NCBI RefSeq assembly: GCF_028416635.1
Contig: NZ_CP114013.1
Location: 3,596,001-3,660,000 of the forward strand
From: Baekduia alba
GTDB taxonomy: Bacteria; Actinomycetota; Thermoleophilia; Solirubrobacterales; Solirubrobacteraceae
Direction: 5' to 3'
DNA: 64,000 nucleotides
Position numbers and translations under genes: made by a program. Positions 32,421-51,955 of this stretch are shown one piece after another. The notes beneath the pieces were generated by a model, which had not been told where the DNA came from, ran no database searches, and was given only the letters and a program-made list of their open reading frames with translations. How positions within the stretch are numbered: the stretch's first letter is position 1; each line of letters opens with the position of its first letter.

Positions 32421-32934
32421 GGAGATCCCCGGAGACGAGCCGCGCCTCGTCCGGCTCACGGTCAACGGCACCCCGCGTTCGGGGATCGCGACCGACCGGA
32501 CGCTGCTCTCGGACTTCCTCCGGCACGAGCTCGGCCTGACCGGCACCCACATCGGGTGCGAGCACGGGGTCTGCGGTGCCTGCACCGTGGCGATCGACGG
32601 CGCGCCCGCCCGCTCCTGCCTCGCCTTCGCCGTGCAGGCGGAGGGCCGCCAGGTCATCACGGTCGAGGGCCTGGCCGACGGCGAGCGGCTCAGCCCGCTG
32701 CAGCGCGCCTTCCAGGACAACCACGCGCTGCAGTGCGGCTACTGCACGTCGGGCTTCCTCATCACGGCCGGCGCGCTGCTGGACGAGAACCCCGATCCGT
32801 CGGACGACGAGATCCGCGAGTACCTCTCCGGCAACATCTGCCGCTGCACGGGCTACGTCGGCATCGTCGGGGCCGTCAAGCAGGTGGCCGCCGAACGGGC
32901 CGCGGCGTCGAACGGGAGCGCCCGCGATGCGTGA
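32413..32934 (+). CDS. Molybdenum hydroxylase [2Fe-2S] subunit (CoxS family)
   Basis: A 173-residue electron-transfer subunit with both clusters visible. The plant-ferredoxin type has CEHGVCGACTVAIDGAPARSC (C-x4-C-x2-C-x11-C). The second has CGYC ... ICRCTGY (C-x2-C, C-x-C). It joins the FAD and molybdenum subunits. It overlaps coxL by eight bases (ATGCGTGA), so M, S and L are translationally coupled. Confidence 0.93.
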   Translation: MPEEIPGDEPRLVRLTVNGTPRSGIATDRTLLSDFLRHELGLTGTHIGCEHGVCGACTVAIDGAPARSCLAFAVQAEGRQVITVEGLADGERLSPLQRAFQDNHALQCGYCTSGFLITAGALLDENPDPSDDEIREYLSGNICRCTGYVGIVGAVKQVAAERAAASNGSARDA

Positions 32935-35305
32935 CCTCTCGTCCGGTCGCCCGCCGCAGTACGTCGGCGCTCGCATCGCCCGGGTCGAGGACCCGAAGTT
33001 CCTCACCGGCCGCGCGAAGTACGTCGACGACGTCAGCTTCCCGGGCCTCCTGCACGCGGCCTTCCTGCGCAGCCCGTACGCGCACGCCCGCATCACGTCG
33101 ATCGACACCAGCGAGGCCTTGGCGCTCGACGGCGTCGTGGCCGTCTTCACCGGTCGCGACCTGGAGTCGGTCGTCCCTCCGATGGTCGCGTCGTCGGTCC
33201 GGCCCGACGTGCTGGACGCCACGCGGCGGGTCCTGCCCGTGGACAAGGTGCGCTTCGTCGGTGAGGCGATCGTGATGGTGATCGCCACGTCGCGGTACCT
33301 CGCCGAGGACGCCTGCGACCTGATCGACGTCGACTACGACCCGCTGCCGGTCGTCATCGACGGTCACGCGGCGCTCGCGCCCGACGCCCCGATCCTCGAC
33401 GAGTCGCTGGGCACGAACACCATCGTGCACGGGATGAAGGAGGGCGGCGACGTCCCCGGCGCCTTCGCGCGGGCCGAGCACGTCTTCGAGAAGAAGTTCC
33501 ACTTCGGCCGCTCGCACGCGGCGCCGCTGGAGGGCCGCGCGGTCATGGCAGACTGGGACACGTCCACGGGCGCGGTGACGATCTGGATCTCGACCCAGAT
33601 CCCCCATCTGATGCGGACGTGGATCGCGGAGCTGCTGGAGATCCAAGAGGCCCGCGTTCGCGTGATCACGCCAGCGGTGGGCGGCGGCTTCGGCCTGAAG
33701 TGCCACCTGTTCCCGGAGGAGGTTCTCATGCCGGTGGCCTCGAGGCTCCTCGGCCGGCCGGTGAAGTGGATCGAGGATCGCTACGAGGCGCTCGCGGCGA
33801 GCAGCCACTCCCGTGAGATCTCGATCGACCTGCGCCTGGCGACCGATGCCGAGGGACACTTCCTCGCGATGGAGGATCACGTCGTCGGCAACGCCGGCGC
33901 CTACTCGGCCAACCCGTTCACGCCGCTCATCGACGTGCTCGAATCCGGGGCGTGCCTCACCGGCGTCTACGACGTCGTCAACGCCCGGTACTGGCTCGAC
34001 TCGCCGCTCACCAACAAGTGCCCGAGCGGCGCGTACCGCGCCGTCGGCATGCCGCCGATCCAGTGCGCCCGCGAGCTGCTGATCGACGAGGCCGCGCGGC
34101 AGCTGGGCCGCGATCCGATCGACCTGCGCCTGCAGAACATGATCGCCGACGGCGGCGAGGTGCATACCAACGTCTTCGGCCACCACTACGACGGCGGCAG
34201 CTACCAGGAGGCGGTCTCGCTGGCGCGCGACGAGCTCGACTACTCGAGCTTCCGGACTCGTCAGGAGGAGCTCCGCACGCAGGGCCGCTACCTGGGCTTC
34301 GGCCTCACCCCGTTCGTCGAGCCGGCCGCGTTCGGCGCGGCCGCCTCGCGGGAGCAGGGCTACGAGGGCACGTCGTACTTCGACAGCGCGCGCGTCACCG
34401 TCGAGCCCGACGGGACCGTCACGATCACCACCGGGCTGCACTCCCACGGCCAGGGCCTGGAGACGACGCTCGCGCAGGTCACCGCGGACGCCCTGGGCGC
34501 CCGGCTGGAGGACGTGCACGTCGTGTTCGGCGACACGGCCAACGCCGTCTACGCGATCGGCACGTTCGCGAGTCGCAGCGCGGTGATCGGCAACGGGATG
34601 ATCACGCGCGCCGCCGCCGAGGTGCGCGAGCGGATGCTGCGGCTCGCCGCGCACATGCTGGAGGCGAACCCCGGCGACCTGGAGGCCTACGACGGCGTCG
34701 TCAGCGTCAAGGGCGACCCGGCGAAGGCGGTCTCGTTCCGCGAGCTCGCCAACCACGCCTACTTCGGCTTCGACGAGCGCGACCCCGACATGGAGGAGTA
34801 CGCGCTGACCTCGACGCGGTCCTACGACCCGCCGCCGAGCTATCCGAACGGCGTGGTCGGGGTGATCGCCGAGGTCGACCCCGAGACCGGCGAGGTCACG
34901 CTCGAGCGCATCGTCGCCGTGGAGGACTGCGGCGTGATGCTGAACCCGACCGTGGTCGACGGGCAGCTCTACGGGGCGATCGTCCAGGGCATCGGGGACG
35001 CGCTCTACGAGGACCTCGTGTACGACGAGGACGGGCAGTTCCTGTCCGGCTCGCTCGTCGAGTTCCTCTACCCCACGGCGACCGAGGTGCCGCCGATCGA
35101 GCTGCACCACCTGTGCACGCCGTCGCCGGTCACCGAGGGCGGCGTCAAGGGCATGGCCGAGGGCGCGCTGATCGCCACGCCCGCGGCCATCGCGTGCGCG
35201 GTCGCCGACGCGCTGAGCCCGTTCGGCGCCAAGGTCGACGCGACGCCGCTGCACCCCGAGCGCGTGCTCGACCTCATCCACTCCGCGACCGACGTCCCGG
35301 CATGA
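32927..35305 (+). CDS. Molybdenum hydroxylase large subunit (xanthine dehydrogenase type, not CO dehydrogenase)
   Basis: A 792-residue catalytic subunit binding Mo-pterin. Family blocks are GARIARVEDPKFLTGRAKYVDD, VGGGFGLK, SGAYRAVGMPP (Ala369-Tyr370-Arg371), GQGLETTLAQ and GGVKGMAEGALIATP, where Glu745 is the catalytic base of the family. True form I CO dehydrogenase carries AYxCSFR in the active-site loop. Here the loop reads AYRAVGM with no Cys, so the enzyme should hydroxylate an N-heterocycle or aldehyde, not CO. The maturation genes (xdhC-moxR, coxE) lie at 48.7-52 kb under the same operator type. The substrate is inferred only from neighbours. Confidence 0.9.
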   Translation: MRDLSSGRPPQYVGARIARVEDPKFLTGRAKYVDDVSFPGLLHAAFLRSPYAHARITSIDTSEALALDGVVAVFTGRDLESVVPPMVASSVRPDVLDATRRVLPVDKVRFVGEAIVMVIATSRYLAEDACDLIDVDYDPLPVVIDGHAALAPDAPILDESLGTNTIVHGMKEGGDVPGAFARAEHVFEKKFHFGRSHAAPLEGRAVMADWDTSTGAVTIWISTQIPHLMRTWIAELLEIQEARVRVITPAVGGGFGLKCHLFPEEVLMPVASRLLGRPVKWIEDRYEALAASSHSREISIDLRLATDAEGHFLAMEDHVVGNAGAYSANPFTPLIDVLESGACLTGVYDVVNARYWLDSPLTNKCPSGAYRAVGMPPIQCARELLIDEAARQLGRDPIDLRLQNMIADGGEVHTNVFGHHYDGGSYQEAVSLARDELDYSSFRTRQEELRTQGRYLGFGLTPFVEPAAFGAAASREQGYEGTSYFDSARVTVEPDGTVTITTGLHSHGQGLETTLAQVTADALGARLEDVHVVFGDTANAVYAIGTFASRSAVIGNGMITRAAAEVRERMLRLAAHMLEANPGDLEAYDGVVSVKGDPAKAVSFRELANHAYFGFDERDPDMEEYALTSTRSYDPPPSYPNGVVGVIAEVDPETGEVTLERIVAVEDCGVMLNPTVVDGQLYGAIVQGIGDALYEDLVYDEDGQFLSGSLVEFLYPTATEVPPIELHHLCTPSPVTEGGVKGMAEGALIATPAAIACAVADALSPFGAKVDATPLHPERVLDLIHSATDVPA

Positions 35306-35383
35306 CCCGCGTCGGTTCCGAGACCACACCCCGCACGACGACCAGGCCGGTTACGGCACACTCGCATTGGAGGGCTGGCGCAC

Positions 35384-36139
35384 ATGGCAACGACTGAACG
35401 CTCTACCCCGACCGACGACACGGTCGTCGCGCCTCGCGTCAACGGGGCCCATGACGTCGGAGGCGCGCTGGACGTCGGCCCGCTCGCCATCGAGGTCGAC
35501 GAACCCGTCTTCCACGAGCCGTGGGAGGGCCTCGTGCAGGCGCTCAGCATGGGCGGCATCGTCGCCGGCGCCTACACCGTGGACGACTTCCGCTGCCACG
35601 CCGAGGGGATGCACCCCGCGTCGTACATGGCCAGCAGCTACTACGAGCAGTGGCTGTACGCGCTCGAGAAGTGCCTGCTCCAGTCCGGCGCCGTCACGGC
35701 CGCCGAGATCGAGGAGCGCGCGGAGGCCGTCGCCGCCGACCCCGACGCGCCGCGGCCGCGCGGCGAGAACGCGGAGCTCCGCGCGCAGATGAAGGAGCTG
35801 CTCGCCCTCGGCGTGCCGGAGCTGGCGCCGGAGGGCGAGCCGCGCTTCGCCGTCGGCGACGAGGTGCAGACGAGGGTCATCCGCGTCGCGCCCGGTCACC
35901 AGCACGTGCGCCTGCCCGGGTACACGCAGGGCAAGCGGGGCGTCGTCGAGGTCGTCCACATGCCGCAGGCGCTGGCCGACGCGGTGGTCGCCGGCAAGGG
36001 CATCCAGCCCGAGTACGTGTACACGGTGCGCTTCCGCTCCAGCGACCTGTGGCCGGGCGCCCGCGCCACGGACAGCGTCACCGCCGAGCTGTGGGAGAGC
36101 TACCTGGAGCCGGCGCCGAGCACCGGCTCCGACCGCTGA
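35384..36139 (+). CDS. Nitrile hydratase beta subunit
   Basis: A 251-residue beta subunit: MNGAHDVGG-type start ([16 protein letters not shown]), [36 protein letters not shown], and a C-terminal SH3-like barrel ([41 protein letters not shown]). With the alpha subunit it hydrates nitriles to amides. The order beta-alpha-activator is that of cobalt-type nitrile hydratases. ATG 35384 is 78 bases after coxL with a GGAGG before it, so it may be cotranscribed with coxMSL. Confidence 0.93.
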
Positions 36140-36165
36140 ACCGAGGAGGAGGAGGAGGACGAGTC

Positions 36166-36765
36166 ATGAGCACCACACGGAGCCAAAGCGAGTTCCTGGC
36201 CCTGCGGACGAAGGCGATCGAGTCTTTGATGGTGGAGAAGGGGCTGGTCACCGCGGACGTCATCGACGACGTCGTCCGGGTCTACGAGCAGGAGATCGGG
36301 CCGCTGCGCGGCGCGAGCATCGTCGCCCGCACCTGGGCCGACCCGGAGTACAAGCGGCGCCTGCTGGAGGACGGCACGGCCGCGATGAAGGAGCTCGGCA
36401 TCCAGGGCTTCGCGGCGTCGATCATGGTCGTCCTCGAGAACACGCCCAAGGTGCACAACCTGGTGGTCTGCACGCTCTGCTCGTGCTACCCGTGGGCGGT
36501 CCTCGGCCTGCCGCCGCGGTGGTACAAGTCGCCGGCGTACCGGGGCCGGGTCGTGCGCGATCCGCGCGGTGTGCTGCGCGAGTTCGGGATCGAGCTGGCC
36601 GACGACGTCGAGGTCCGCGTGTGGGACTCGAGCTCGGAGGTGCGCTACCTGGTCCTGCCGGAGCGGCCCGAGGGCACCGAGGACCTGTCCGAGGAGCAGC
36701 TGGCCGCCCTCGTGTCGCGCAACGCGATGATCGGCACGGCCTTCGCCGACCGACCTGCGTCATGA
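36166..36765 (+). CDS. Nitrile hydratase alpha subunit, cobalt type
   Basis: A 199-residue metal-binding subunit. The claw motif is CTLCSC (Cys102-Thr-Leu-Cys105-Ser-Cys107); Thr at the second position marks the non-corrin cobalt type, whereas iron enzymes have Ser. [19 protein letters not shown] follows as usual. A very strong purine-rich ribosome site, GAGGAGGAGGAGGAGG, precedes ATG 36166. The cobalt transporter genes directly downstream agree with the metal choice. The amide product could go to the amidase at 17.8-19.3 kb. Confidence 0.95.
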
Positions 36766-37217
36766 CCACGCCGCGATCCGCTCAGGTCGACCGGTTCGTC
36801 GCGGACGCCGATGCCTCCGGAGCCGACGCCCTGCCCCGGCGCAACGGCGAGCTCGTCTTCGACACGCCATGGGAGAGCCGCTCGTTCGGCCTGGCGATCA
36901 GCCTGGCGCAGAAGGGGCTCATCGAGTGGGAGGAATTCCGCGGGCAGCTGATCGAGGAGATCGGCGCCTGGGAGGCGGGGCACGCCGCCGACTCGGACGA
37001 GTGGAGCTACTACGAGCACTGGCTGGCGTCGCTCGAGCACGTCCTGCTGGACGGTGAGCTGCTGACCCTCGAGGAGCTCGAGACGCGGACGGCGGAGGTC
37101 GCCGAGGCACAGGCGCACGAGCACGACCACGAGCACGGCCACGGCCACGACCACGGCCACGGCCACGGCGCCGACGGCGCCGGGCACCCCCAGACGACCC
37201 TCCCGGAGGTTCAGTGA
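36762..37217 (+). CDS. Nitrile hydratase activator with His-rich tail
   Basis: A 151-residue accessory protein homologous to the cobalt nitrile hydratase activators that deliver cobalt to the alpha subunit. The family core is [30 protein letters not shown] and [15 protein letters not shown]. Unlike standard members it ends in a His/Asp/Glu/Gly tail (about residues 118-138, alternating His and acidic or Gly residues) that looks like a metal reservoir. ATGA overlap with the alpha stop. Confidence 0.88.
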
Positions 37218-37453
37218 TGAGCAACGCCATCGCGGTGACACCGCAGCCCTCGGAGCTGGCGCCTCCCGAGGCGATCCACCCGCCCGCCATCTCCGTCCGC
37301 GAGATCTGGCCGTGGGCGATCCTCGCCGTCGCGCTGATCGCGCTGTGGTACATGGTCGGCGCGGAGCAGGGTGCGACGTCGCTCACGTCGGGCAACCTCG
37401 TCCACGAGTGGGTGCACGACGGCCGTCATCTGCTCGGGTTCCCGTGCCACTGA
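37217..37453 (+). CDS. cbtB: CbtB cobalt transporter subunit
   Basis: A 78-residue protein with one membrane helix (WPWAILAVALIALWYMVG) and the diagnostic C-terminal His motif HEWVHDGRHLLGFPCH. It works with CbtA in cobalt uptake. ATG 37217 overlaps the activator stop (TGATG) and is preceded by GGAGG. CbtAB genes are often under a cobalamin riboswitch; none is seen here. Expression appears tied to the nitrile hydratase operon instead. Confidence 0.92.
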   Translation: MSNAIAVTPQPSELAPPEAIHPPAISVREIWPWAILAVALIALWYMVGAEQGATSLTSGNLVHEWVHDGRHLLGFPCH

Positions 37454-37459
37454 TCCGCC

Positions 37460-38248
37460 ATGCTGCGCACGCTGCTGATCTGCGGCCTCGTCGCCGGCCT
37501 CCTCGGGGGGCTCCTCGCCACCGGGTTCGTCTCGCTGGCCGGTGAGCCGGCGGTCGACCAGGCGATCGCCTTCGACGAGGCGTCCTCGGCCGCCGACCAC
37601 GTCCATGCCGGCCACCGCCACGCGGCCGAGGCTCCGGCGCCGGTCTCGCGCGGGCTGCAGAAGTCCGCGGGGCTGCTGACCGCCGCGCTCGTCTACGGGC
37701 TGGCGCTCGGCGGCCTGTTCGCGCTGGCCTTCGCGTTCGCCTACGGGCGCGTCGGCCGGGCCAGCCCGCAGCTCACCGCGTACTGGCTTGCCGCGGGGAC
37801 GTTCGTCGTGGTCTACCTCGTGCCGTTCGCGAAGTACCCGGCCAACCCGCCCTCCGTCGGCGACCCGGCGACCATCGGGCGCCGCACCCTGCTCTACGGG
37901 ACGATGGTCGCGATCTCGCTGCTCGCGGCGCTGGCGGCAGCGCGGCTGCGGCCGCGGCTCGCGCAGCGGACCAGCGCCGCGACGCTGCTTACGCTGCTCG
38001 CGTACGTGGTCATCGTGGTCGCTGCCGCCCTGGCGCTGCCGGGGATCCACGAGGTCCCCGCGCGTTTCCCCGCCACCACGCTGTGGCGCTTCCGCGAGGC
38101 ATCGATCGGCATGCAGGCGACGCTGTGGGCGACGATCGCCGTCGCGTTCGGCTACGCGGCCCAGCGGGTCATGACGGGGCAGCCCGTGCTGCCCCGTCGC
38201 GACGCGGCGCCGGCTTCGCGAGGGGACCTCAGCACTCGACCACGTTGA
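37460..38248 (+). CDS. cbtA: CbtA cobalt transporter subunit
   Basis: A 262-residue integral membrane protein with several hydrophobic segments. [19 protein letters not shown] starts it, and a His-bearing loop ([16 protein letters not shown]), [28 protein letters not shown], and [22 protein letters not shown], all typical of CbtA, follow. The start is six bases after cbtB. The 3' end overlaps the convergent sdaA gene by 20 bases. Confidence 0.92.
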
Positions 38249-39617: not shown

Positions 39618-40225
39618 CCCGCCGGCCCGCCCAACGGGAGGCCGCGGTACTCGGCGCTGGCGTCGAGCAGCCACGCGGCCAGGTACTCCGCGAACGAGGA
39701 CCGCACGAACAGCCAGTACGTCGGCTCGTCGCTGCGCTGCAGCACGATCACGCCGGTGCGGGCCAGCAGCGTCTGCGCGCAGCGCCCGGTGGCGAACGAG
39801 CGCGGGTGCAGATCCAACGGGCAGCCCTTGGACAGCACGGCACGCGCGGCGGTGCCGCCGACCTCGATCACCGTGTGCTGCGCCGAGCCGTCGACGACGG
39901 TCGCGTGCGCGCCCGCGACCGCAGCCACGATCCGCGCCTCCACGGCGGCCTGCTCGCCGCTCGGGCCGACGACGAGCCACTCGTCGAGGCCGAGCCAGAG
40001 CAGGTCGAGCCCCTCAGCCCGCGCGCTGGCGTTCGGGCGCGGGAGCGCGGTCCCGAGCGCGGCCTCGACGGCGCGGGCGGCGAGGCCGTCGGGTGCGACG
40101 CGCAACGTCAGCTGCGCCAGGAACGGGACCTCGGCGAGATGGACCGCGGTCGGCGCCTCCATGGCCTCGGCGAAGCGGTCGGCGTAGCCGTGCAGCGGGC
40201 TCAGGCCGGTGTGGGTGTCAACCAT
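39614..40225 (-). CDS. soxG: Sarcosine oxidase gamma subunit
   Basis: A 203-residue SoxG homologue with the late block [30 protein letters not shown] and [21 protein letters not shown], both typical of the family. ATG 40225 overlaps the alpha stop by eight bases (ATGGTTGA). Structural subunit of the heterotetramer. It is more canonical than the gamma paralogue at 6.0-6.7 kb. Confidence 0.9.
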
Positions 40226-43073
40226 CGCGGCGGCTCCCCTCCTTGTCGTAGAGGACGGCGTCGGTGACCGTGACCGGCGTGGTCTGCCCACCGAACGAGG
40301 CGTGGATCGTCTGCCCGAGGAGGTCGCGACCGCTCGCGACGAGCGCCAGCGCGAACGTCCGCCCCAGCGCGGCGCTGCGGTAGCTCGAGGTCACGTGGCC
40401 GAGCATCGCCATCGGGATCTCCAGCCGCTCGGTGGCCACGAGCTGCGCGCCCTCGGGCAGCAGCCGGTCCGGGTCCTGCGGCAGCAGGCCGACGAGCTGC
40501 TTGCGATCGGACCGGCGGGTGTCCGGACGCGCGAAGGAGCGCATCCCGATGAAGTCGTCCTTCTTCTTCGAGACCACCCAGTCCATGCCGAGGTCCTGTG
40601 GCGTGACGGTCCCGTCGGTGTCCTGGCCGATGATCGGATAGCCCTTCTCGGCCCGCAGCACGTGCATCGTCTCGGTGCCGTAGGGCGTGATCCCCTCGTC
40701 GTCGCCGGCGGCCAGCAGCGCCTCCCAGACGGCGACCGCGTGCCAGGCGCGCACGTTGACCTCGTAGGCCAGCTCGCCGGAGAAGCTGATCCGGCAGACC
40801 CGGGCCGGCAGGCCGGCGACCTCCGTGTCGCGCCAGGCCATGAACGGGAAGTGCTCCTGAGCGATCTGGAGCCCCGGCGCGAGCTGCCCCAGGACCGCGC
40901 GGGAGCGCGGCCCGACGACCGCGATCGTCGCCCACTCGTCGGTGACCGACGTGCAGTGGACACGCAGCTCCGGCCACTCGGTCTGCAGCCACTCCTCGAA
41001 CCAGTCGAGCACGGTGGCGGCGTTGCCGGTGGTCGTCGTGACGAGGTAGCGGTCCTCGGCCAGGCGGATCGCCGTGCCGTCGTCGAAGACCATCCCGTCC
41101 GGACGGCACATCACGCCGTAGCGGATCATGCCGACCTTCAACGAGCTCATGAGGTTGGTGTAGACGCGGTCGAGGAACGCGGCCGCGTCGGGGCCGTGGA
41201 CGTCGATCTTGCCGAGCGTCGACGCGTCCATCAGCGCGACGCCCTCACGCGCCGCACGGCACTCGCGCAGCACGGCCGCGTCCATGTCCTCCCCGGCGCG
41301 CGGGAAGTGGCGCGGGCGCTTCCACTGGCCGACGTCCTCGAAGACGGCACCCTGGGCGACGTGCCAGGCGTGCAGCGCTGTCACGCGGATCGGGTCGTGC
41401 AGTCGGCCGCGGTCGCGCCCGGCCAGCGCCGCGAACGACACCGGCATGTACGGCGGGCGGTAGGTGGTGGTCCCGATCTCGCCCAGCGGCACGCCGAGCT
41501 CCTGCGCGATGACCGCGGTCGCCAGGACCCCGGAGGTCTTGCCCTGCTCGTGGCCCGTCCCGGCCGTCGTGTAGCGCTTGACGTGCTCGACCGAGCGCAT
41601 CCCGGCGCCGACGGCGCGCCGGACGTCGGCGACGGTCGCGTCGCGGGCCAGGTCGACGAAGTGCGCCGCCCACGGCTCGCCCGGCCCCGGGTCGGCGACG
41701 ACCCACAGCGCGCTTGGCGGCGCCGGCCGCGGCGCGGGCTCGGCGGCGGGCAGCGCCGTCGCGGCGGCGTCGAACCCCGCCGCACGCGCGGCTCGCGCGC
41801 CGGCGTCGGCGCCGTCGCGCAGGCAGGCGCCCAGGTCGTCGAGCCCGCGCACGGCACCCGCCACCTCGACGCCGCGCACCGGCGCGCCGGGCACGAAGGC
41901 GGCGAGCGCGTCGTCGTAGCGCAGCTGGCCCTGCGCCTGGCTGAAGAGGTGCACGACGGGGTTCCAGCCGCCGGAGACCGCGAGCAGGTCGCACGCGATC
42001 GTGTCGGCCCGGCGCTTCCCGGTGAGCGTCGCGAGGCTGACCCCCTCCAGCGCGCGGTCGCCGGACGCCGCGGCGACCACGTGACCGCCGAGCACCTCGA
42101 TGCCGGCGGCGCGGCAGCGCTCGACCCAGCCCGTGGACGCGTCGCGGCGCGCGTCGACGACCGCCGCGACCTCGACGCCGGCGCCGGCGAGGTCCAGCGC
42201 GGCGGCGTAGGCGCTGTCGTTGGTGGTGAAGAGGACCGCGCGCCGGCCCGGCGCGACCGCGTAGCGGTTCACATAGGTGCGCGCGGCGCCCGCCAGCATG
42301 ATGCCGGGGCGGTCGTTGTCGGCGAAGGCGATCGGCCGCTCGTGAGCGCCGGTGGCGAGGACGACCTGGCGGGCGCGCAGGTGCCAGACGCGCTCGTGGG
42401 TGAGGTGCGCGTCCACATCGGCGTCGCGGTGCTCGGAGCGCCGTTCCAGCGCGACGAGGTAGTTGGCGTCGTAGCGCCCAAGGACGGTGGTGCGCTCCAG
42501 GAGCTCGACGTCGGGATGCTGCGCCAGCCGCGCGGTCACCGTCCGGACCCACGCCGCCGCCGGTTCGCCGTCGAGCGTCTCGCGCGTCCCGAGAAGGGAG
42601 CCGCCGAGCTCGCTCCCTTCGTCCGCGAGGCACACGCGGGCGCCGCTCTCCGCGGCGGCCAGCGCGGCCGCCAGCCCGGCCGGCCCCGCCCCGACGACGA
42701 GGACGTCGCAGTGGCGGTGCATCTTGTCGTGGTACGTGCCCTCTTCGCCGTGGCGCGGCAGCCGCCCGCGCCCGGCCAGCCCCCGCGCCAGAAGGCCGTC
42801 GCGCAACTCGACGACGGGCGCGGTCGTGATCGGCTCAGCACCAGCCCCGTCGACCGCGACAAGCGCGCTCGGCTCCTCGACCCCGGCCGTGACGATGCCG
42901 CGCGGGCGTCCGAAGCGGATGCTCGTGCTGACCTCGCGCACGCCGTTGGCCAGCAGCGCCGAGGCGAGCGTGTCGCCCCGCAGCCCGGCATACGGGCGCC
43001 CGTCGAAGGTGAAGGTCAACGGCGCGCCGCGGTCCACGCGCCCGCCGTCGGGCAGTCGGAACGGAGCGCTCAT
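40218..43073 (-). CDS. soxA: Sarcosine oxidase alpha subunit
   Basis: A 951-residue subunit with an N-terminal ferredoxin-like fold that lacks cysteines (GRPRGIVTAGVEEPSALV where the paralogue has the Fe-S loop), then the NAD/FAD region CDVLVVGAGPAGLAAALAAAE and a C-terminal GcvT-like THF-binding domain (LMDASTLGKIDVHGPDAAAFLDRVY). With beta, gamma and delta it oxidises sarcosine to glycine, giving hydrogen peroxide and methylene-THF. ATG 43073 gives the family-typical start (PLTFTFDGRPY); open frame upstream to 43250 is not needed. Confidence 0.92.
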   Translation of the reverse strand: MSAPFRLPDGGRVDRGAPLTFTFDGRPYAGLRGDTLASALLANGVREVSTSIRFGRPRGIVTAGVEEPSALVAVDGAGAEPITTAPVVELRDGLLARGLAGRGRLPRHGEEGTYHDKMHRHCDVLVVGAGPAGLAAALAAAESGARVCLADEGSELGGSLLGTRETLDGEPAAAWVRTVTARLAQHPDVELLERTTVLGRYDANYLVALERRSEHRDADVDAHLTHERVWHLRARQVVLATGAHERPIAFADNDRPGIMLAGAARTYVNRYAVAPGRRAVLFTTNDSAYAAALDLAGAGVEVAAVVDARRDASTGWVERCRAAGIEVLGGHVVAAASGDRALEGVSLATLTGKRRADTIACDLLAVSGGWNPVVHLFSQAQGQLRYDDALAAFVPGAPVRGVEVAGAVRGLDDLGACLRDGADAGARAARAAGFDAAATALPAAEPAPRPAPPSALWVVADPGPGEPWAAHFVDLARDATVADVRRAVGAGMRSVEHVKRYTTAGTGHEQGKTSGVLATAVIAQELGVPLGEIGTTTYRPPYMPVSFAALAGRDRGRLHDPIRVTALHAWHVAQGAVFEDVGQWKRPRHFPRAGEDMDAAVLRECRAAREGVALMDASTLGKIDVHGPDAAAFLDRVYTNLMSSLKVGMIRYGVMCRPDGMVFDDGTAIRLAEDRYLVTTTTGNAATVLDWFEEWLQTEWPELRVHCTSVTDEWATIAVVGPRSRAVLGQLAPGLQIAQEHFPFMAWRDTEVAGLPARVCRISFSGELAYEVNVRAWHAVAVWEALLAAGDDEGITPYGTETMHVLRAEKGYPIIGQDTDGTVTPQDLGMDWVVSKKKDDFIGMRSFARPDTRRSDRKQLVGLLPQDPDRLLPEGAQLVATERLEIPMAMLGHVTSSYRSAALGRTFALALVASGRDLLGQTIHASFGGQTTPVTVTDAVLYDKEGSRRDG

Positions 43074-43113
43074 CGGTCGCTCCGCGTGGCCGGGTCGACG
43101 TGGCGTCGCGCGC

Positions 43114-43446
43114 TCATGCGCGGTCCCTCGCCATCTCGGCGAGCGTCTCGCGTCCGGTCCGCTGCAGCGCCTGGAGGTAGTCGAGGTGGGCCGCCCACCG
43201 GGGCTCCCCCCACAGCTCGGCGGCCAGCTCCGCCGTGTCGGCGTGAGCATCGAGCAGCTCGTACACGAGCGCCTCCGTGTGCCGCGCCGGTCGAGGGGCG
43301 GCGGTCGCGTCGGGAGCGGCGACCGCGGGCGCGCGCCCGACCAGCGCCTTGACGATCGCCGCGACGGCGCCGATCGTGACCTGGACCGCCGCGGACAGCG
43401 TCGGACCGCGTGGGTCGCCGCCCGGGATCGGCACCGGACGCGTCAT
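43114..43446 (-). CDS. Hypothetical protein inserted in the sox operon
   Basis: A 110-residue protein that I do not recognise. It starts at ATG 43446, overlapping the soxD stop (ATGA), and ends 40 bases before soxA, so it is translated as part of the operon. It has a hydrophobic N-terminal segment (LSAAVQVTIGAVAAIVKALVG), a Pro/Ala linker and a C-terminal Glu/Leu-rich helical part (ALVYELLDAHADTAELAAEL, HLDYLQALQRTGRETLAEMA). It is not one of the four standard sarcosine oxidase subunits and has no counterpart in the paralogous operon at 4.8-9.8 kb. It may be an assembly or membrane-association factor. Confidence 0.72.
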   Translation of the reverse strand: MTRPVPIPGGDPRGPTLSAAVQVTIGAVAAIVKALVGRAPAVAAPDATAAPRPARHTEALVYELLDAHADTAELAAELWGEPRWAAHLDYLQALQRTGRETLAEMARDRA

Positions 43447-43718
43447 GCCGGAACCGCCGTCCCGTCGAGCAGCTTCACCGACAGGATCGCGTGCGTGGCG
43501 GTGTCGCGCACGACGTTGAACCAGCGCCGGCAGCCGGCCGCGTGGCACCAGCGCTCGGCGAACGGTCCCTTGGGGTTGTCGCGCACGAAGACGTACGCGG
43601 CCCACTCGTCGTCGCCGAGCACATGCGGATCGGCGGGATAGGCGACGTCGGCCTGGCCGCCGCAGTGGAACTCGATCTCGTCGCGCGGTCCGCACCAGGG
43701 GCAAGGGATGAGCAGCAT
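43443..43718 (-). CDS. soxD: Sarcosine oxidase delta subunit
   Basis: A 91-residue zinc-binding subunit: CPWCGPRDEIEFHCGG start and CHAAGCRRWFNVVRDT end, with the expected Cys/His ligands. It bridges alpha and beta. ATG 43718 lies 15 bases after the soxB stop; its own stop overlaps the hypothetical gene. Confidence 0.92.
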   Translation of the reverse strand: MLLIPCPWCGPRDEIEFHCGGQADVAYPADPHVLGDDEWAAYVFVRDNPKGPFAERWCHAAGCRRWFNVVRDTATHAILSVKLLDGTAVPA

Positions 43719-43733
43719 CGGATCTCCTGAGCG

Positions 43734-44966
43734 TCAGTGGGCGACGGCGGCGGCGCCGTGCTCGTCGATGAGCGCACCGGTCGCGAAGCGGTCGAGGGTG
43801 TACGGAGCGTTGAGCGGGTGCGGCTCGCCCGTGGCCACCGTGTGCGCGAAGACCCACCCGGCACCCGGCGTCGCCTTGAAGCCACCGGTGCCCCAGCCGC
43901 AGTTGATGTAGAGGTCGTCCACCGGCGTCAGGCCGATGATGGGCGAGGCGTCGGGGCAGACGTCGACGACCCCCGCCCACGTCCGGAGCACGCGCGCCCG
44001 CGCGAAGATCGGGAACAGCTCCAGCGCCGCGGCCATCTGGTGCTCGATCACGTGGAACGAGCCGCGCTGCGCGTAGGAGTTGTAGGGGTCGATCCCGGCC
44101 CCGAGCACGAGCTCGCCCTTGTGCGCCTGGCTGACGTAGACGTGGACGGCGTTGGACATGACGACGGTCGGATGCACGGGCTCGAGCAGCTCGGACACCA
44201 ACGCCTGCAGCGGGTGGCTCTGCAGGGGAAGCCGGATCGAGGCCATCTCCGCCAGCAGCGAGGAGTGACCGGCGGCGCACAGCGCGACGCGGCCGGCGGC
44301 AATCGGCCCGCGCGAGGTCTGCACGCCGATCACGCGGTCGCCGTCCACCTCGATGCCGGTCACCTCGCAGTCCTGGATCAGGCTGACGCCGAGCGCGTCG
44401 GCCGCGCGCGCGTAGGCCCACGCGACCCAGTCGTGCTTGGCGATCCCGCCGCGGGGTTGGAACGTCGCACCGAGGACCGGGTAGCGGACGTCGGGCGAGA
44501 CGTCGACGATCGGGCAGACCTCCTTGACCTGCTCGGGCGACAGCCACTCGGCGTCGACGCCGTTGAGGCGGTTGGCCTCGACGCGACGCACCGAGTCGCG
44601 GACGTCCTGCAGCGAGTGCGCCAGGTTCAGCACGCCGCGCTGGCTGAAGAACACGTCGTACTCGAGCTCGTCCGCGAGCCCCTCCCAGAGCCCGAGCGCG
44701 TGCTCGTAGAGCGCGGCGCTCTCGTCCCAGAGGTAGTTCGAGCGGATGATCGTCGTGTTGCGGGCCATGTTGCCGCCGGCGAGCCAGCCGCGCTCGAGCA
44801 CCGCGACGTCGGTGATGCCGTGGTTGCGGGCCAGGTAGTACGCGGTCGCGAGGCCGTGACCGCCGGCGCCGACGATCACCACGTCGTACGAGCGCTTCGG
44901 CTCCGGCGTCCGCCACAGCCACGGCGGGTGCTCATAGGCGTCCGCGTCGCCGTGCTCGGTCGTCAC
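43734..44966 (-). CDS. soxB: Sarcosine oxidase beta subunit
   Basis: A 410-residue flavoprotein with [21 protein letters not shown] (FAD), the covalent-FMN His in [32 protein letters not shown] and the C-terminal [14 protein letters not shown]. It holds the active site for sarcosine demethylation. GTG 44966 overlaps the glyA stop (GTGA). Confidence 0.93.
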
Positions 44967-46270
44967 CGGTGCGCTCCGTCCAAGTGCTCGTAGAGCGGGT
45001 GGCGGGTGGCGAGCGCCGCGACGCGCGCGGCGAGCGCGGCGAGCGCCGGCCCGCCGGCCTCGGGTCGCAGGGCGTCGGCGATGACGTCGGCGACCTCGGC
45101 GAAGTCGTCGGCGCCGAAGCCGCGCGTCGCGAGCGCCGGGGTGCCGATTCGCAGCCCGGAGGTGACCATCGGCGGGCGCGGGTCGAACGGCACCGCGTTG
45201 CGGTTGACCGTGATCCCGATCTCGTGCAGACGGTCCTCGGCCTGCTGGCCGTCGAGCGTGGAGTCGCGCAGGTCCACGAGCACGAGGTGCACGTCGGTGC
45301 CGCCGGTGACGACCTTGACGCCGGCCGCCGCGGCGTCGGGGCGCAGCAGCCGCTCGGCGACGATCCGCGCGCCCTCCAGGGTGCGGCGCTGGCGCCCGGC
45401 GAACTCCGCGGTGCCGGCGAGCCGGAAGGCGACGGCCTTGGCGGCGATGACGTGCTCGAGCGGGCCGCCCTGCTGGCCCGGGAAGACGGCCGTGTTGAGC
45501 CGGCGGCCGAGCTCCTCGACGGCGAGGATCGTGCCGCCGCGCGGTCCGCCGAGCGTCTTGTGGGTCGTCGTGGTGACGACGTGCGCGTGCTCGACCGGGT
45601 TGGGGTACAGGCCCGCGGCGACCAGGCCGGCGAAGTGCGCCATGTCGACCATCAGGATCGCGCCGACCTCGTCGGCGATCCTGCGGAAGGCGCGGAAGTC
45701 GAGCCGCCGGGAGTACGCCGACCAGCCGGCGACGATCAGCTTGGGACGGTGCTCGCGCGCCAGCGCCGCGACCTCGTCCATGTCGACCAGGAGGTCCGAC
45801 GCCCGCACGTGATACGCGACGGCCTCGTAGAGGCGGCCCGAGAAGTTCAGCCGCATGCCGTGGGTGAGATGGCCGCCGTGCGCCAGGTCGAGACCGAGGA
45901 TCGTGTCGCCCGGCTCGAGCAGCGCGGCCATGACCGCCGCGTTCGCCTGGGCACCGGAGTGGGGTTGGACGTTGGCGTACTCGGCGCCGAACAGGCGCTT
46001 GACGCGGTCGATCGCCAGCTGCTCCGAGACGTCGACGTGCTCGCAGCCCCCGTAGTAGCGCTTGCCCGGATACCCCTCGGCGTACTTGTTGGTCAGGACG
46101 GAGCCCTGGGCCTCCAGCACCGCCTCGGGCGCGAAGTTCTCGGAGGCGATCATCTCGAGCGTCGACTGCTGGCGGTGCAGCTCGCGGCGCAGCACCTCGG
46201 CGATCTCGGGATCCACCTCGCGGAGCGGGCGGGCCAGCAGGTTGGCGTGTGGTTCGGTGGGAGTGGACAT
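44963..46270 (-). CDS. glyA: Serine hydroxymethyltransferase
   Basis: A 435-residue PLP enzyme that makes serine from glycine and methylene-THF, both products of the sarcosine oxidase encoded after it. Signatures are [62 protein letters not shown] and the PLP-lysine site [15 protein letters not shown]. First gene of the operon ending in sdaA. Confidence 0.96.
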
Positions 46271-46410
46271 CGCGGTGACCCTTCGTGTGCTCGATCACCA
46301 CGGTGCCTGCCCCGATCGCGCAGCGACAGCGACGCTCCGTCACTCGATGGCGGCACGTGGTTGACACCATGCCACCCGCATGCCGGCTGGGCCTGCGATC
46401 ATCCGGGGTC
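46271..46410. promoter_or_regulatory. Divergent promoter region between glyA and the PucR regulator
   Basis: 140 bases separating two divergent units. A TTGACA (46361-46366) could be a -35 for the regulator, but no good -10 follows at normal distance. The GTATnCnnnGnATAC operator is absent, so the sarcosine operon appears not to belong to the GntR set. Confidence 0.4.
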
Positions 46411-48045
46411 GTGACGCACGACCCGGGAGAGGTCCCGCTGCACGACGCGGTGTTCACGATCGCCGACGTGCTGGCCCTGCCATTGGTGCGGGAAGGCGTC
46501 CCGGAGGTGCTCGCCGGCGAGGCGCACCTCACGCGTGCGATTCGCTGGGTGCACTCGGGCGAGTTCCCCGACATGCCCGCGGTGCTCAAGGGCGGCGAGC
46601 TGCTCCTGACGCACGGCCTGACGCTCAGCACGCGGTCGGACCGCCAGCGCCGGTACGTCGCCGACCTGGCGCGCGCCGGGCTCGCCGGGCTCGTCATCGA
46701 GCTCGGCCCGGGCATGAAGCGCGTGCCGTCCGCGCTCGTCGAAGAGGCGTGTGCCCAGGAGCTGCCGCTGGTCGTCCTGCAGCAGCCGATCCCCTGGGTC
46801 GAGGTCACCGAGGCCGTCCACCGCACCATCGTCAGCCGCCAGGGCGACGTGCTCGAACGTGGGCAGCGGCTGCACGACCGCTTCGCCGCGCTCGTCGCCT
46901 CGGGCGCCGACGTCGCCGACGTGCTGCACGCGCTGGCGACGTCCGTCGGCAACCCGGTCGTGCTCACCCGTGACGGCGAGATCATCTACTCGGCGTCGGC
47001 CGAGCACGACCACGCCCACCAGGTGGCCTCGACGTGGGAGGCGGTCGTGCGGGACCTGCCCCACGCGCCGGACGTCGCCAGCGTGCCGGTCGCCGTCGCC
47101 GGCGACCCGCACTGGGGTCTGGTGTCCCTGCTGGCGCTCGACCGGCCGCTGCGCCCGTTCGATCGCGTCGCCCTGGAGCGCGCCGTCCCGATCCTCGCGC
47201 TGGCCTTCCGGCACACGCACGAGGAGCTGACGCTCACGGCCCGCGACCACGGCGAGTTCCTCGACGCGTTGATGGACGACGCCGAGCTGGACGAGCCACA
47301 CGCGTACCTGCGCGCGGCCAAGATCGGCTTCGCGGCGCGGACGTCCTGGCTCGTGCCCTTCGCGGCGAACCTCGCGCCCGGAGCGGGGCAGCTCGACGAG
47401 CGCCACTGGGCGGTCGTCGAGCGCGACCTGCGCCGAGAGCTCGCCTCCCGGCAGGCGCCTGCCGTGGTCGGGACCGTCGGGCACCAGCAGCGGCACGTCG
47501 CGGTCGTGGCCGGGCTCGACGCGGCCGAGCAGCGGGCGGCGACGGCGGAGGCGATCGCCGAGGCCGTGCGCCAAGCCGTGCGGCGGACGCGCTCCAGTGC
47601 CGAGGTCGTCGTCTGCGTCGGGCCTGCGGCCGCGTCGTGGAGCCAGGCGGGCCGGGGGCTGCGCGAGACCATCGACGCGCTGCCCGCGATGCGCCAGGCG
47701 CCGGCGCGGCCCTGGCACGACGTCAGCGGGCCGGACCTCCGCCGGCTGCTGTGGGCGCTGCGCGGCGAGCGCGCGCTGGCCGAGTTCGTCGAGCGACGCC
47801 TTGCCCCGCTCCAGGCGCACGACGCGCGCGGCCGCGGCGAGCTGCTGCGGACGCTCGAGGTCTACTGCGCCCACGGCGGCCGCAAGGCCGAGGCCGCGCG
47901 GGCGCTGCATCTCGAGCGCCAGTCGCTCTACAAGCGCCTCGCTCGGATCGCGACGCTGCTGGACGCCGACCTCGACGACGAGGACACCCTGTTGGGGCTG
48001 CACCTGGCGCTGCGCGCCCAGCGACTGCTGGGCGGCAGGACGTGA
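46411..48045 (+). CDS. PucR-family transcriptional regulator
   Basis: A 544-residue regulator with the N-terminal PucR domain ([43 protein letters not shown]), a middle ligand/GGDEF-like region and a C-terminal helix-turn-helix ([25 protein letters not shown]). Divergent from the sarcosine operon, which it probably controls. GTG 46411 gives [10 protein letters not shown] just before the domain; the frame is open further upstream but without domain support. Members of the family regulate purine and amine catabolism. Confidence 0.87.
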
Positions 48046-48653: not shown

Positions 48654-48696
48654 TTGACGGAGGGCTCTCGCGGCGTACTATGTATCCTATGTATGC
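48654..48696 (+). promoter_or_regulatory. Promoter and operator of the xdhC-moxR/coxE operon
   Basis: TTGACG (48654-48659), 16-base spacer, TACTAT (48676-48681), then GTATCCTATGTATGC (48682-48696), whose reverse complement GCATACATAGGATAC fits GTATnCnnnGnATAC with one arm mismatch. The dyad covers the transcription start. Leader of about 50 bases to ATG 48738. Confidence 0.7.
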
Positions 48697-48737
48697 GACC
48701 AATACGGTCGGTACCGCCGTCGCACCGGAGGCCGTCC

Positions 48738-50804
48738 ATGGCGGTTAGGCCCGGCACCGGCGACACCACGATCCAGCGGCGTATCCAGGCCACGGCGTCC
48801 AAGTGGCTCGCCGCCGGCGTCCGGACGGTCGCCTCGACGCTCATCGACGCGGACGGCTCCGCGCCGTTCGAGGTCGGCGCCACCATGCTGGTCGACGAGG
48901 CGGGTCGCATCGAAGGCTCCGTCACCGGCGGATGCGTCGAAGGCGCGCTGTTCGAAGAGGCGCAGAGCGTGCTCGCCGGCGGCGGTCCGCGCGTGCGGAC
49001 CTACGGCGTGAGCGACGACCAGGCCGTCAGCGTCGGCCTGACGTGCGGTGGCACGGTTCACGTCTTCGTCCGGGAGCTGCCGCCGCCGTCCGCGGAGGTC
49101 CTCCAGCGTGCCGCCACCGCCATCGGCCACGGCCGCGACGTCGCCGTCATGAGCGTCGTCGAAGGCGCTCAGGTCGGCGCCACGGCCGCTCTCGTCGACG
49201 GCGAGCTGCTCGGCACCCTCGGTCAGGGCGAGCGACTCGACGAGACCGTTGCCCGGGACGCGCGCGGAGCGGTCGACCACGCCAGCTCGATGCTGCGCCG
49301 GTACGGAAGCTCCGGGGACATCATGGGTCGCGAGACCGCCGTGTTCATCGAGCCCTTCTCGACGCCGCCCAAGCTCATCATCTTCGGCGCGATCGACTAC
49401 GCGATCGCCGTCGCGGCGCTGGGCAAGCAGCTCGGCTACCACGTCACCATCTGCGACGCCCGTCAGGCGTTCGCCGCCTCCGAACGACTCGGCGTCGCCG
49501 ACGAGGTCGCGGTGAGCTGGCCGGACGAGCACCTCCGCGACCAGCGGCTGACCCGCCGCGACGTCGTGCTCGTCTTCACCCACGACCCCAAGTTCGACGA
49601 GCCGGCGCTGCGGAGCGCGCTGGCGACCGACGCCGGGTACATCGGCGCCCTCGGCAGCCGTCGCACGCATCGCGACCGGGTCGAGCGGCTCCTCGCTGCC
49701 GGCGTCCCCCAGGCCGCCATCGACCGGATCGCCGCGCCCTGCGGCCTGGACATCGGCGCGCGGACGCCCGAGGAGACGGCCGTCTCGATCCTGGCCGAGG
49801 TGATCGCCAGCGGCAGTGGCCGCCAGGGCCCGTCCCTCTCCACCACGACCGGCTCGATACGCCCACCGCGCGTGCCGTCCCCCACCACGGTGCCCGGTCG
49901 GCCCGAGACCGTCGCCGACATGGAGGCCATGCTCGCCGCCGGGGGCTACCTCGCCGATCGGGGCGTGGCGTCGTCGCTCTTGCTCGCGCAGAAGCTCAGC
50001 CGCCCATTGCTGTTGGAGGGCGAGCCGGGGGTCGGGAAGACCGAGCTGGCGAAGGCGTACGCCGCGGCGACCGGTGCGCGGCTGATCCGGCTGCAATGCT
50101 ACGAGGGCATCGACGTCCACCAGGCGCTGTACGACTGGAACTTCGCGCGGCAGATGCTCTTCATCCGGGCCCTCGACGCCGATCCGAGCGCGCGCGAGGA
50201 CGCGGTGCGCCACGTCTTCGGCGAGGAGTTCCTGCTCCGCCGGCCCCTCCTGGAGGCGCTGCAGTCCGACGAGGACGTCGTCCTGCTCATCGATGAGATC
50301 GACCGTGCGGACGACGAGTTCGAGGCATTCCTCCTCGAGCTGCTGTCCGACTACCAGGTCAGCATCCCGGAGATCGGGACCGTCCGAGCGACACGAACCC
50401 CGCTGGTCGTCCTGACCTCGAACCGGACCCGCGAGCTGCACGACGCGCTGCGGCGGCGCTGCCTCTACCACTGGGTCGCCGCGCCGGACCGCGAGCGCGA
50501 GCTGCGCATCCTCGGCCTCAAGGCCCGCGAGGCGAGCGAGCAACTGGCGGAGCAGGTGTGCACGGCGGTGCAGGCGATCCGCGCGCTCGGCCCGCAGAAG
50601 CCGCCGGGCATCGGAGAGACCATCGACTGGGCGACCGCCCTGGCCATGCTCGGCGTCCAGCGGCTCGACGACGAGGCGATCGAGGCCACGCTCGGAACGC
50701 TCGTCAAGCACCGCGCGGATCAGGAACTGGTGCTCGCGGAGCTCCTGCCACTGGAACCGCCCGCCGATCCGCTGCCGTCGCCCTCGCCGTCGAGCGGGGC
50801 ATGA
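48738..50804 (+). CDS. XdhC-MoxR fusion: molybdenum hydroxylase maturation protein
   Basis: One 688-residue open frame joins two cofactor-maturation proteins. Residues 1 to about 365 are XdhC/CoxF-like: the CoxI half (GSAPFEVGATMLVDE, GSVTGGCVEGALFEEA, GLTCGGTVHVFV), then the Rossmann half (PKLIIFGAIDYAIAVAALGK, IGALGSRRTHRDRV, IGARTPEETAVSILAEVIA). After a linker rich in Ser, Pro and Thr, residues from about 400 are a MoxR/CoxD AAA+ ATPase: Walker A GEPGVGKTE (about 428) and Walker B VVLLIDEIDRAD (about 515), then LTSNRTRELHDALRRRCL. XdhC proteins insert sulfurated Mo-cofactor; CoxD remodels the enzyme's metal site. ATG 48738 starts the XdhC domain; an upstream in-frame ATG precedes the promoter. 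Confidence 0.88.
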   Translation: MAVRPGTGDTTIQRRIQATASKWLAAGVRTVASTLIDADGSAPFEVGATMLVDEAGRIEGSVTGGCVEGALFEEAQSVLAGGGPRVRTYGVSDDQAVSVGLTCGGTVHVFVRELPPPSAEVLQRAATAIGHGRDVAVMSVVEGAQVGATAALVDGELLGTLGQGERLDETVARDARGAVDHASSMLRRYGSSGDIMGRETAVFIEPFSTPPKLIIFGAIDYAIAVAALGKQLGYHVTICDARQAFAASERLGVADEVAVSWPDEHLRDQRLTRRDVVLVFTHDPKFDEPALRSALATDAGYIGALGSRRTHRDRVERLLAAGVPQAAIDRIAAPCGLDIGARTPEETAVSILAEVIASGSGRQGPSLSTTTGSIRPPRVPSPTTVPGRPETVADMEAMLAAGGYLADRGVASSLLLAQKLSRPLLLEGEPGVGKTELAKAYAAATGARLIRLQCYEGIDVHQALYDWNFARQMLFIRALDADPSAREDAVRHVFGEEFLLRRPLLEALQSDEDVVLLIDEIDRADDEFEAFLLELLSDYQVSIPEIGTVRATRTPLVVLTSNRTRELHDALRRRCLYHWVAAPDRERELRILGLKAREASEQLAEQVCTAVQAIRALGPQKPPGIGETIDWATALAMLGVQRLDDEAIEATLGTLVKHRADQELVLAELLPLEPPADPLPSPSPSSGA

Positions 50805-51955
50805 TCGCCGACCGGCTCGCGAGCTTCGCCGCGGCCCTGCGCTCCGCGGGGATCCGCGTCGCGCCGAGCGACGTGCACACCGCGCTCGACGCGCTCGCCG
50901 CCATCGGCCTGACCGACGAGCGGGACCTGTACTGGGCGCTGCGCACGAGCCTCGTCAAGCACGGCGACGACATCCCTGCCTTCGACCGCACGTTTCACTG
51001 GTTCTGGCGGAGCGAGGCGATGCCGCCGATCCCGTCGGCGAGCGAGCCCGACTCGCCGTCGAGGGCAGACGACGCCACCGCGGCCGAGCCGGTGCTGGAG
51101 GCGCCGGGCCGGGCGTCGCCGGCCGGTGTCCGGCGTCGGCTCACGGAAGCCGAGCCGTCGGAGTCCGAGCCGGAGCGCGGCCGCGACCACGATCACGCGG
51201 CGACCTACAGCTCGGTCGACGCGCTCGGCGAGAAGCCCTTCGACGAGTACGGCGCCGACGACTACGAGCGGCTGTCGGCCCGGCTGCTCGGCCTGAGCCG
51301 CGTGGGTCCGTGGCGCAGGCGCCGACGCCGTCAACCGAGCCCGCGCGGCGCCGTCGACGTCCGCCGCACGCTGCGCGCGGGCCTGCGGCGCGACGGCTTT
51401 CCCATGAGCCGCCACCATCACCGGCCGTCGATCCAGCAGCGCAAGCTCGTCGTCGTCTGCGACGTTTCCGGCTCGATGGAGCCGTTCGCGCGCGCGCTGC
51501 TCGTGTTCGCCCACGCCGCGCTGGCAGGCCGGCGCAGCGTCGAGACCTTCACGTTCGCGACGCGGCTGACCCGGGTGACGAAGGAGCTTCGCCATCAGCC
51601 TGCGCGCGCGCTGCCGGCGGCCGGCGAGGCGATCGCGGACTGGGCCGGCGGCACGCGCGTCGGCGAGTCGCTCGCGCGCCTGGACCGCTGGCACGCCGGC
51701 GCCCTCCAGGGCGCGGTGGTGATCATCGCGAGCGACGGCTGGGACCTGGGCGACCCGACGCCGCTGCGGACGGCGATGGCTCGCATCCAGCTGCGCGCGC
51801 ACAGCGTCATCTGGTTGAACCCGCAGCTGCGCGATCCCGCGTTCGAGCCCCTGACGCTGGGGATGAGCACCGCGCTGCCGTTCGTCGACCACTTCCGCCC
51901 GTGCCACGATGCCGCCAGCCTGGTGGCCCTGGTCCGGCTCCTCGATGAGATCTGA
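50801..51955 (+). CDS. CoxE-like VWA-domain protein
   Basis: A 384-residue partner of MoxR/CoxD ATPases. The C-terminal von Willebrand A domain has the MIDAS start VVVCDVSGSMEPFARALLVF (DxSxS) and a later IIASDGWDLGDP. The middle is a charged linker. ATG 50801 overlaps the fusion stop (ATGA), so ATPase and VWA protein are made together, as in cox and other MoxR-VWA pairs. It should help activate the hydroxylase encoded at 31.5-35.3 kb. Confidence 0.88.
   Translation: MIADRLASFAAALRSAGIRVAPSDVHTALDALAAIGLTDERDLYWALRTSLVKHGDDIPAFDRTFHWFWRSEAMPPIPSASEPDSPSRADDATAAEPVLEAPGRASPAGVRRRLTEAEPSESEPERGRDHDHAATYSSVDALGEKPFDEYGADDYERLSARLLGLSRVGPWRRRRRRQPSPRGAVDVRRTLRAGLRRDGFPMSRHHHRPSIQQRKLVVVCDVSGSMEPFARALLVFAHAALAGRRSVETFTFATRLTRVTKELRHQPARALPAAGEAIADWAGGTRVGESLARLDRWHAGALQGAVVIIASDGWDLGDPTPLRTAMARIQLRAHSVIWLNPQLRDPAFEPLTLGMSTALPFVDHFRPCHDAASLVALVRLLDEI

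Follow-up and report, generated by a model that had tools for sequence, protein, structure and literature searches.

One uninterrupted reading frame in a 64,000-nucleotide stretch of the Baekduia alba genome (hereafter, the window) encodes XdhC and a MoxR/CoxD-type AAA+ ATPase, both complete, with zero internal stop codons in the translation. The XdhC-CoxD fusion seems to be real and very rare. Taken singly, both halves are known and ordinary proteins; what is new is the combination of two well-known families, which was found nowhere else that we searched. The published Oligotropha model assigns CoxD and CoxF to different chemical steps. A natural fusion provides genetic (Rosetta-stone) evidence that XdhC and CoxD can act at the same place and at 1:1 dosage. 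The names CoxD, CoxE, and CoxF are used here to denote homology and imply no role in CO oxidation. The coordinates of the features are given in Table 1.

Table 1. Features of the fused locus and of the candidate client hydroxylase (positions are those of the window).
Feature	Position	Strand	Basis or remark
Fused xdhC-coxD gene	48738-50804	+	Single uninterrupted frame, 688 aa
XdhC part (residues 1 to about 377) with the usual C-terminal tail GRxGxxLxxxxGxI	48738-49868	+	Pfam, tail homology, fold
Tether predicted to be disordered, residues 361-386 (end of XdhC and about 10 residues from the join)	49818-49895	+	pLDDT <50, tail homology
In-frame GTG, possible relic of a former coxD start	49890-49892	+	GTGCCC, compare the L139 coxD start
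In-frame ATG, second candidate internal coxD start	49920	+	
MoxR/CoxD-type AAA+ ATPase part	49902-50753	+	Pfam, NCBIfam, motifs, NorQ fold
Shine-Dalgarno-like GGAGG	48727-48731	+	6 bases 5' of the ATG at 48738
Sigma-70-like promoter, TTGACG-16-TACTAT	48654-48681	+	Consensus match only
coxE, VWA-domain partner	50801-51955	+	ATGA overlap with the fused gene
coxM, form II-like hydroxylase, candidate client	31548-32420	+	
coxS, form II-like hydroxylase, candidate client	about 32413-32929	+	
coxL, form II-like hydroxylase, candidate client	about 32927-35305	+	

In the primary sequence of the fused protein, Pfam domains XdhC_CoxI (residues 23-90, 80.1 bits), XdhC_C (residues 213-355, 3.1e-41), and AAA_5/AAA (residues 423-575, about 1e-12) all scored above their curated cut-offs, and the succession of XdhC_CoxI and the XdhC_C Rossmann domain placed the N-terminal half in the XdhC family. 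The XdhC half retained the motifs GGCVEGA and PCGLDIGA, and the ATPase half Walker A (GEPGVGKT), Walker B (LLIDEID), and sensor 1 (TSN). These three ATPase motifs and an arginine-rich box matched the residues of free CoxD relatives, and the adjoining gene at 50801 was that of the VWA partner expected beside a CoxD; its product had an intact VWA_CoxE domain (2.4e-52) with the MIDAS motif DVSGS. NCBIfam models matched in the same order, an XdhC-related model over residues 19-357 and a MadB/MoxR-type ATPase model over residues 391-669. Both halves were left out of the corresponding equivalog families because their scores were below the curated cut-offs (XdhC_rel_AOR, 204 of 350 bits; MadB_ATPase, 263 of 475 bits). 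An earlier note on this DNA had read the frame as XdhC and a MoxR/CoxD ATPase in one polypeptide, with an ATGA overlap leading into coxE, and translation, Pfam, NCBIfam, and motifs agreed with that reading. The note had also described CoxF/XdhC as the sulfuration and insertion factor, which fits R. capsulatus XdhC but not Oligotropha, where CoxF was assigned to copper and CoxD to sulfuration (PMC4240915). Between 48400 and 52700, one sigma-70-like site was found against 0.0 expected from shuffled sequences. Most simply, the fused gene and coxE would form one transcription unit. No Rfam family was found in the window.

The structure of the fused protein was predicted by AlphaFold2 from a balanced but shallow alignment of 12 sequences (mean pLDDT 77.7, pTM 0.50). 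The model contained two folded units, residues 11-360 and 387-671, linked by residues 361-386. Structural comparison of the XdhC half with 2we8_A (Z 34.2, rmsd 5.0, 337 aligned residues, 44% identity) identified an XdhC fold, and comparison of the ATPase half with NorQ (9qh9_C; Z 19.5, rmsd 3.0, 245 aligned residues) identified a MoxR-type fold. NorQ was the nearest solved relative of the ATPase half; the NorQ/CbbQ entries gave Z scores of 17-19.5 (CbbQ 18.6), and Clp/HslU scored lower, at 14-15. The model indicated no contacts between the XdhC and ATPase halves, which is weak evidence given the shallow alignment. The predicted arrangement of two domains on a disordered tether thus does not indicate rigid coupling of the halves.

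The sequence of the join suggested how the two halves became connected. Free XdhCs of this subfamily carry GRxGxxLxxxxGxI(H/R) after the Rossmann domain, and their chains end between a few and about 25 residues beyond it. In the fused protein, this tail homology ran on in frame to GSIRP and supported the XdhC frame up to about residue 377; about ten residues separated the tail from the usual CoxD N-terminus. The free XdhC of L141/L168 ends in GPIHSHRVPVP followed by a stop codon, and the fused protein has GSIRPPRVPSPTTVPGRP at the equivalent place. The Ser/Pro/Thr stretch that the earlier note had called a linker between the domains is present, but it is mainly the ordinary C-terminal tail of a free XdhC rather than a separate linker. 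The free coxD of L139 begins with GTGCCC, and the fused gene has GTGCCC in frame at the join.

A sequencing or assembly error that masks a stop between two ordinary genes would produce the same apparent frame. The whole genome lies on a single contig of 5.86 Mb. To evaluate a hidden stop at the join, a worry that the earlier note had raised, every single substitution, insertion, and deletion was introduced at each base of codons 357-400. Of these 1056 changes, only 10 would truncate XdhC ahead of residue 400, and the run of five C contained none of the 10. The third-position GC content of codons 361-392 was 0.91, similar to the remainder of the fused gene; the total GC content of the intergenic stretch directly upstream of the gene was 0.66. 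These results and the in-frame tail homology argue against a hidden stop, which we regard as very improbable, and the sequence indicates that the fusion is genuine.

No second XdhC-MoxR fusion was detected in 40 near relatives, in 146 species of the family, in 399 species of the class, in 50 species of the family containing the closest XdhC, or, with a query spanning the join, in 232 species of the order. In 396 species of the phylum, with two candidates scored per genome, there was also none among the matches listed, although a few could be missed. The order, class, and phylum samples comprised about 800 different species in all. The fusion was likewise absent from 80 CoxD loci of named genomes. 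Among 427 plasmid records, the listed matches that covered about 80% or more of the query were not fusions, as their pieces were spread over about 3 kb, wider than a fusion needs. Phage records gave single-domain matches only, and no fusion, among the matches listed. Apparent long frames or join-spanning matches in L150, L152, L016, L128, L112, and L180-L188 were rejected as separate or out-of-frame genes. Taken together, these searches bore out the view that two normally separate proteins are fused here. Our literature search, with subscription papers and domain catalogues beyond its reach, yielded no description of XdhC fused to a MoxR/AAA+ protein.

To consider the origin of the fusion, gene order was compared among the 80 CoxD loci. 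CoxE adjoined CoxD in 77 of them, and 45 had xdhC downstream of coxD, as in the classic coxDEF order. The permuted order xdhC-coxD-coxE was seen unfused in three genera from the taxonomic order of B. alba (L047/L140, L139/L167, and L141/L168) and on a plasmid of Deinococcus sp. AJ005. These separate operons, which likely represent the ancestral layout, share gene order, strand, and short boundaries with the fused locus; they differ from it in having two genes with a stop between them, and in the three actinobacterial cases the xdhC and coxD frames differ. In its phylogenetic tree, the XdhC half was grouped with those of G378 and G431 with support of 98/95; the ATPase half had no clear place in a tree of its own. 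Descent of both halves from an L047-type operon was therefore rejected, as the XdhC half belongs elsewhere in the tree. The order in G431 (L166) is xdhC-coxM-coxS-coxL-coxD-coxE, and a loss of coxMSL from an operon of this type is another possible way in which xdhC and coxD could have become neighbors. It is plausible that both halves descend from one operon. Judged from these sequences, the simplest account would be a fusion of neighboring genes through a lost stop, for which several types of starting operon are possible.

Gene boundaries elsewhere in the module were also variable. In a Chloroflexi MAG (CF_27, VBEN01000044.1; L090:2984-5080, + strand), a CoxD-type AAA+ ATPase and a CoxE VWA protein were encoded in one frame, with the CoxD end and the CoxE start shortened. 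This is likewise a fusion of neighboring genes in the same maturation module, although the pair of partners differs from that of XdhC-CoxD. In several Acidimicrobiia/Actinomycetota MAGs and one Rubrobacter MAG, xdhC was split into two adjacent genes (L028:4247-5389, L030:7899-9068, L033, L043, L044, L072, and L077); the XdhC_CoxI half ended in W before a stop codon (TAA, TAG, or TGA), with the Rossmann half next, often in the same frame.

The B. alba genome encodes five molybdenum hydroxylase large subunits. Of these, the hydroxylase at 2832 kb (L131) alone carries AYRCSFR, the motif of form I CO dehydrogenase, and it is accompanied by its own maturation set of unfused coxD, coxE, and xdhC; the coxL of the window has GAYRAVG at that position. 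Membership of the fused protein in the form I CO dehydrogenase set was thus ruled out, the enzyme being located elsewhere with its own maturation set. In the form I CO dehydrogenase cluster (L178; G000:C1:2825864-2833090), a short XdhC-like Rossmann stretch lies between coxL and coxD. The client of the fused protein is probably a hydroxylase other than form I CO dehydrogenase. Perhaps the likeliest client is the form II-like hydroxylase encoded 13 kb upstream of the fused gene, beside which no unfused maturation set was found in the window. On the same strand, these hydroxylase genes are followed by those for a nitrile hydratase beta subunit (35384-36139) a nitrile hydratase accessory protein (36483-37217), and the cobalt transporter CbtA (37460-38248); the whole (31548-38248) looks like a cluster for nitrile or N-heterocycle degradation. 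Between this cluster and the fused gene are the alpha and beta subunits of a heterotetrameric sarcosine oxidase (40218-44978, - strand), both above the NCBIfam cut-off, and a PucR-type regulator (46285-48045, + strand), which in its N-terminal part comes closest to PmfR, an activator of the nicotine pathway, at a score far below the cut-off. The genes xdhC, VWA, and MoxR also occur on nicotine-related Arthrobacter plasmids.

The XdhC of R. capsulatus is dimeric; it binds Mo-MPT, interacts with the donor of sulfur, and carries out cofactor insertion (PMC2997495), and by analogy we propose Mo-MPT binding, dimerization, and cofactor transfer for the XdhC half. CoxD is an ATPase that forms hexamers and dimers (PMC3471820), and its actinobacterial homologue MSMEG_0748 is a hexamer (PMC12657314); on this analogy, the CoxD half is proposed to form a hexamer with ATPase activity. 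NorQ remodels its target through its VWA partner, NorD, whose finger is taken in by the pore (PMC13036017, PMC9976466); the helix-2 inserts of this pore are located at the N-terminal side (PMC13036017). Sulfuration in Oligotropha requires CoxD, and copper requires CoxE and CoxF (PMC4240915). With these systems as a guide, we consider it rather likely that the protein is a genuine fusion of neighboring maturation genes in which XdhC, tethered to a MoxR hexamer, aids handover of the Mo cofactor to a hydroxylase. Once the xdhC stop was lost and the coxD frame continued, the natural tail of XdhC would have become a flexible tether to the ATPase N-terminus. The AAA+ part of the fused protein would mediate assembly of the usual MoxR hexamer, with the XdhC parts around the N-terminal face, where NorD-type VWA partners dock. 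The XdhC parts may pair, as the known homologue dimerizes, and a tether of about 26 disordered residues would leave them free to do so and to reach the client. CoxE would recognize the apo-hydroxylase through its MIDAS site, and ATP hydrolysis would open the hydroxylase active site; the tethered XdhC would keep the sulfurated Mo cofactor at high local concentration for handover to the opened apo-hydroxylase. The benefit would be proximity and a fixed 1:1 dosage, not new chemistry.

A bolder version, which we think possible but doubtful, is a dedicated "open and load" machine. In it, cofactor chaperones would be permanently tethered on the substrate face of a MoxR hexamer, and ATP-driven opening by CoxD/CoxE would be kinetically coupled to delivery of the sulfurated Mo cofactor by XdhC. 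By the Rosetta-stone argument from the fusion, free XdhC, CoxD, and CoxE would then likewise form a transient complex in CoxDEF-type systems in general. The earlier note had suggested that cofactor loading and ATP-driven remodelling are one coupled step. Its premise of normally separate proteins fused here stands, but the coupled step is no more than possible, given the flexible tail and the separate sets that this genome and hundreds of relatives possess; none of the observations supports rigid or obligatory coupling. Those separate sets, at least the one in the same genome, also fit a fusion without consequence, in which one real polypeptide has two halves that function exactly like their free counterparts, with no contribution from the tether and with a stop loss that was simply tolerated. 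The occurrence of the fused gene in a single species, a disordered tether that is mostly normal XdhC tail, and the fluid gene boundaries indicated by the CoxD-CoxE fusion and by the split xdhC genes of Acidimicrobiia all agree with such a tolerated event. Nothing decisive stands against it: the retention of all inspected motifs in both halves fits a neutral and a useful fusion alike. We regard it as possible, though on the doubtful side. The in-frame GTG at the old coxD start position, which recalls the GTGCCC start of the L139 coxD, and the nearby ATG raise the further prospect that translation also starts internally, at GTG 49890 or ATG 49920, and yields free CoxD alongside the fused protein, giving mixed hexamers with fewer than six XdhC domains. 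However, neither codon is preceded by a Shine-Dalgarno sequence at usable spacing, whereas the gene start at 48738 has a good one, and such mixed products appear unlikely. The fused protein is of value as a natural Rosetta stone that sets XdhC beside the CoxD/CoxE motor, and as a ready construct, also for structural work.

Compared with the XdhC family, which includes R. capsulatus XdhC, the M. smegmatis homologue of Rv0376c (2we7/2we8), and CoxF/CoxI, the fused protein shares both Pfam domains and the two XdhC motifs, but it runs on without a stop into an AAA+ ATPase. With the CoxD/MoxR ATPases (O. carboxidovorans CoxD, MSMEG_0748, NorQ, and CbbQ) it shares Walker A and B, sensor 1, and the MoxR-type fold, and the position of coxE directly downstream of the ATPase is a further likeness to CoxD; free CoxDs, however, start shortly before YLADRG, whereas the fused protein has an XdhC at its N-terminus. 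In the eukaryotic Moco sulfurase, a functional counterpart of XdhC is fused to its interaction partner, the cysteine desulfurase (PMC2997495). XdhC-CoxD differs from that enzyme in having another partner and in being built from other protein families.
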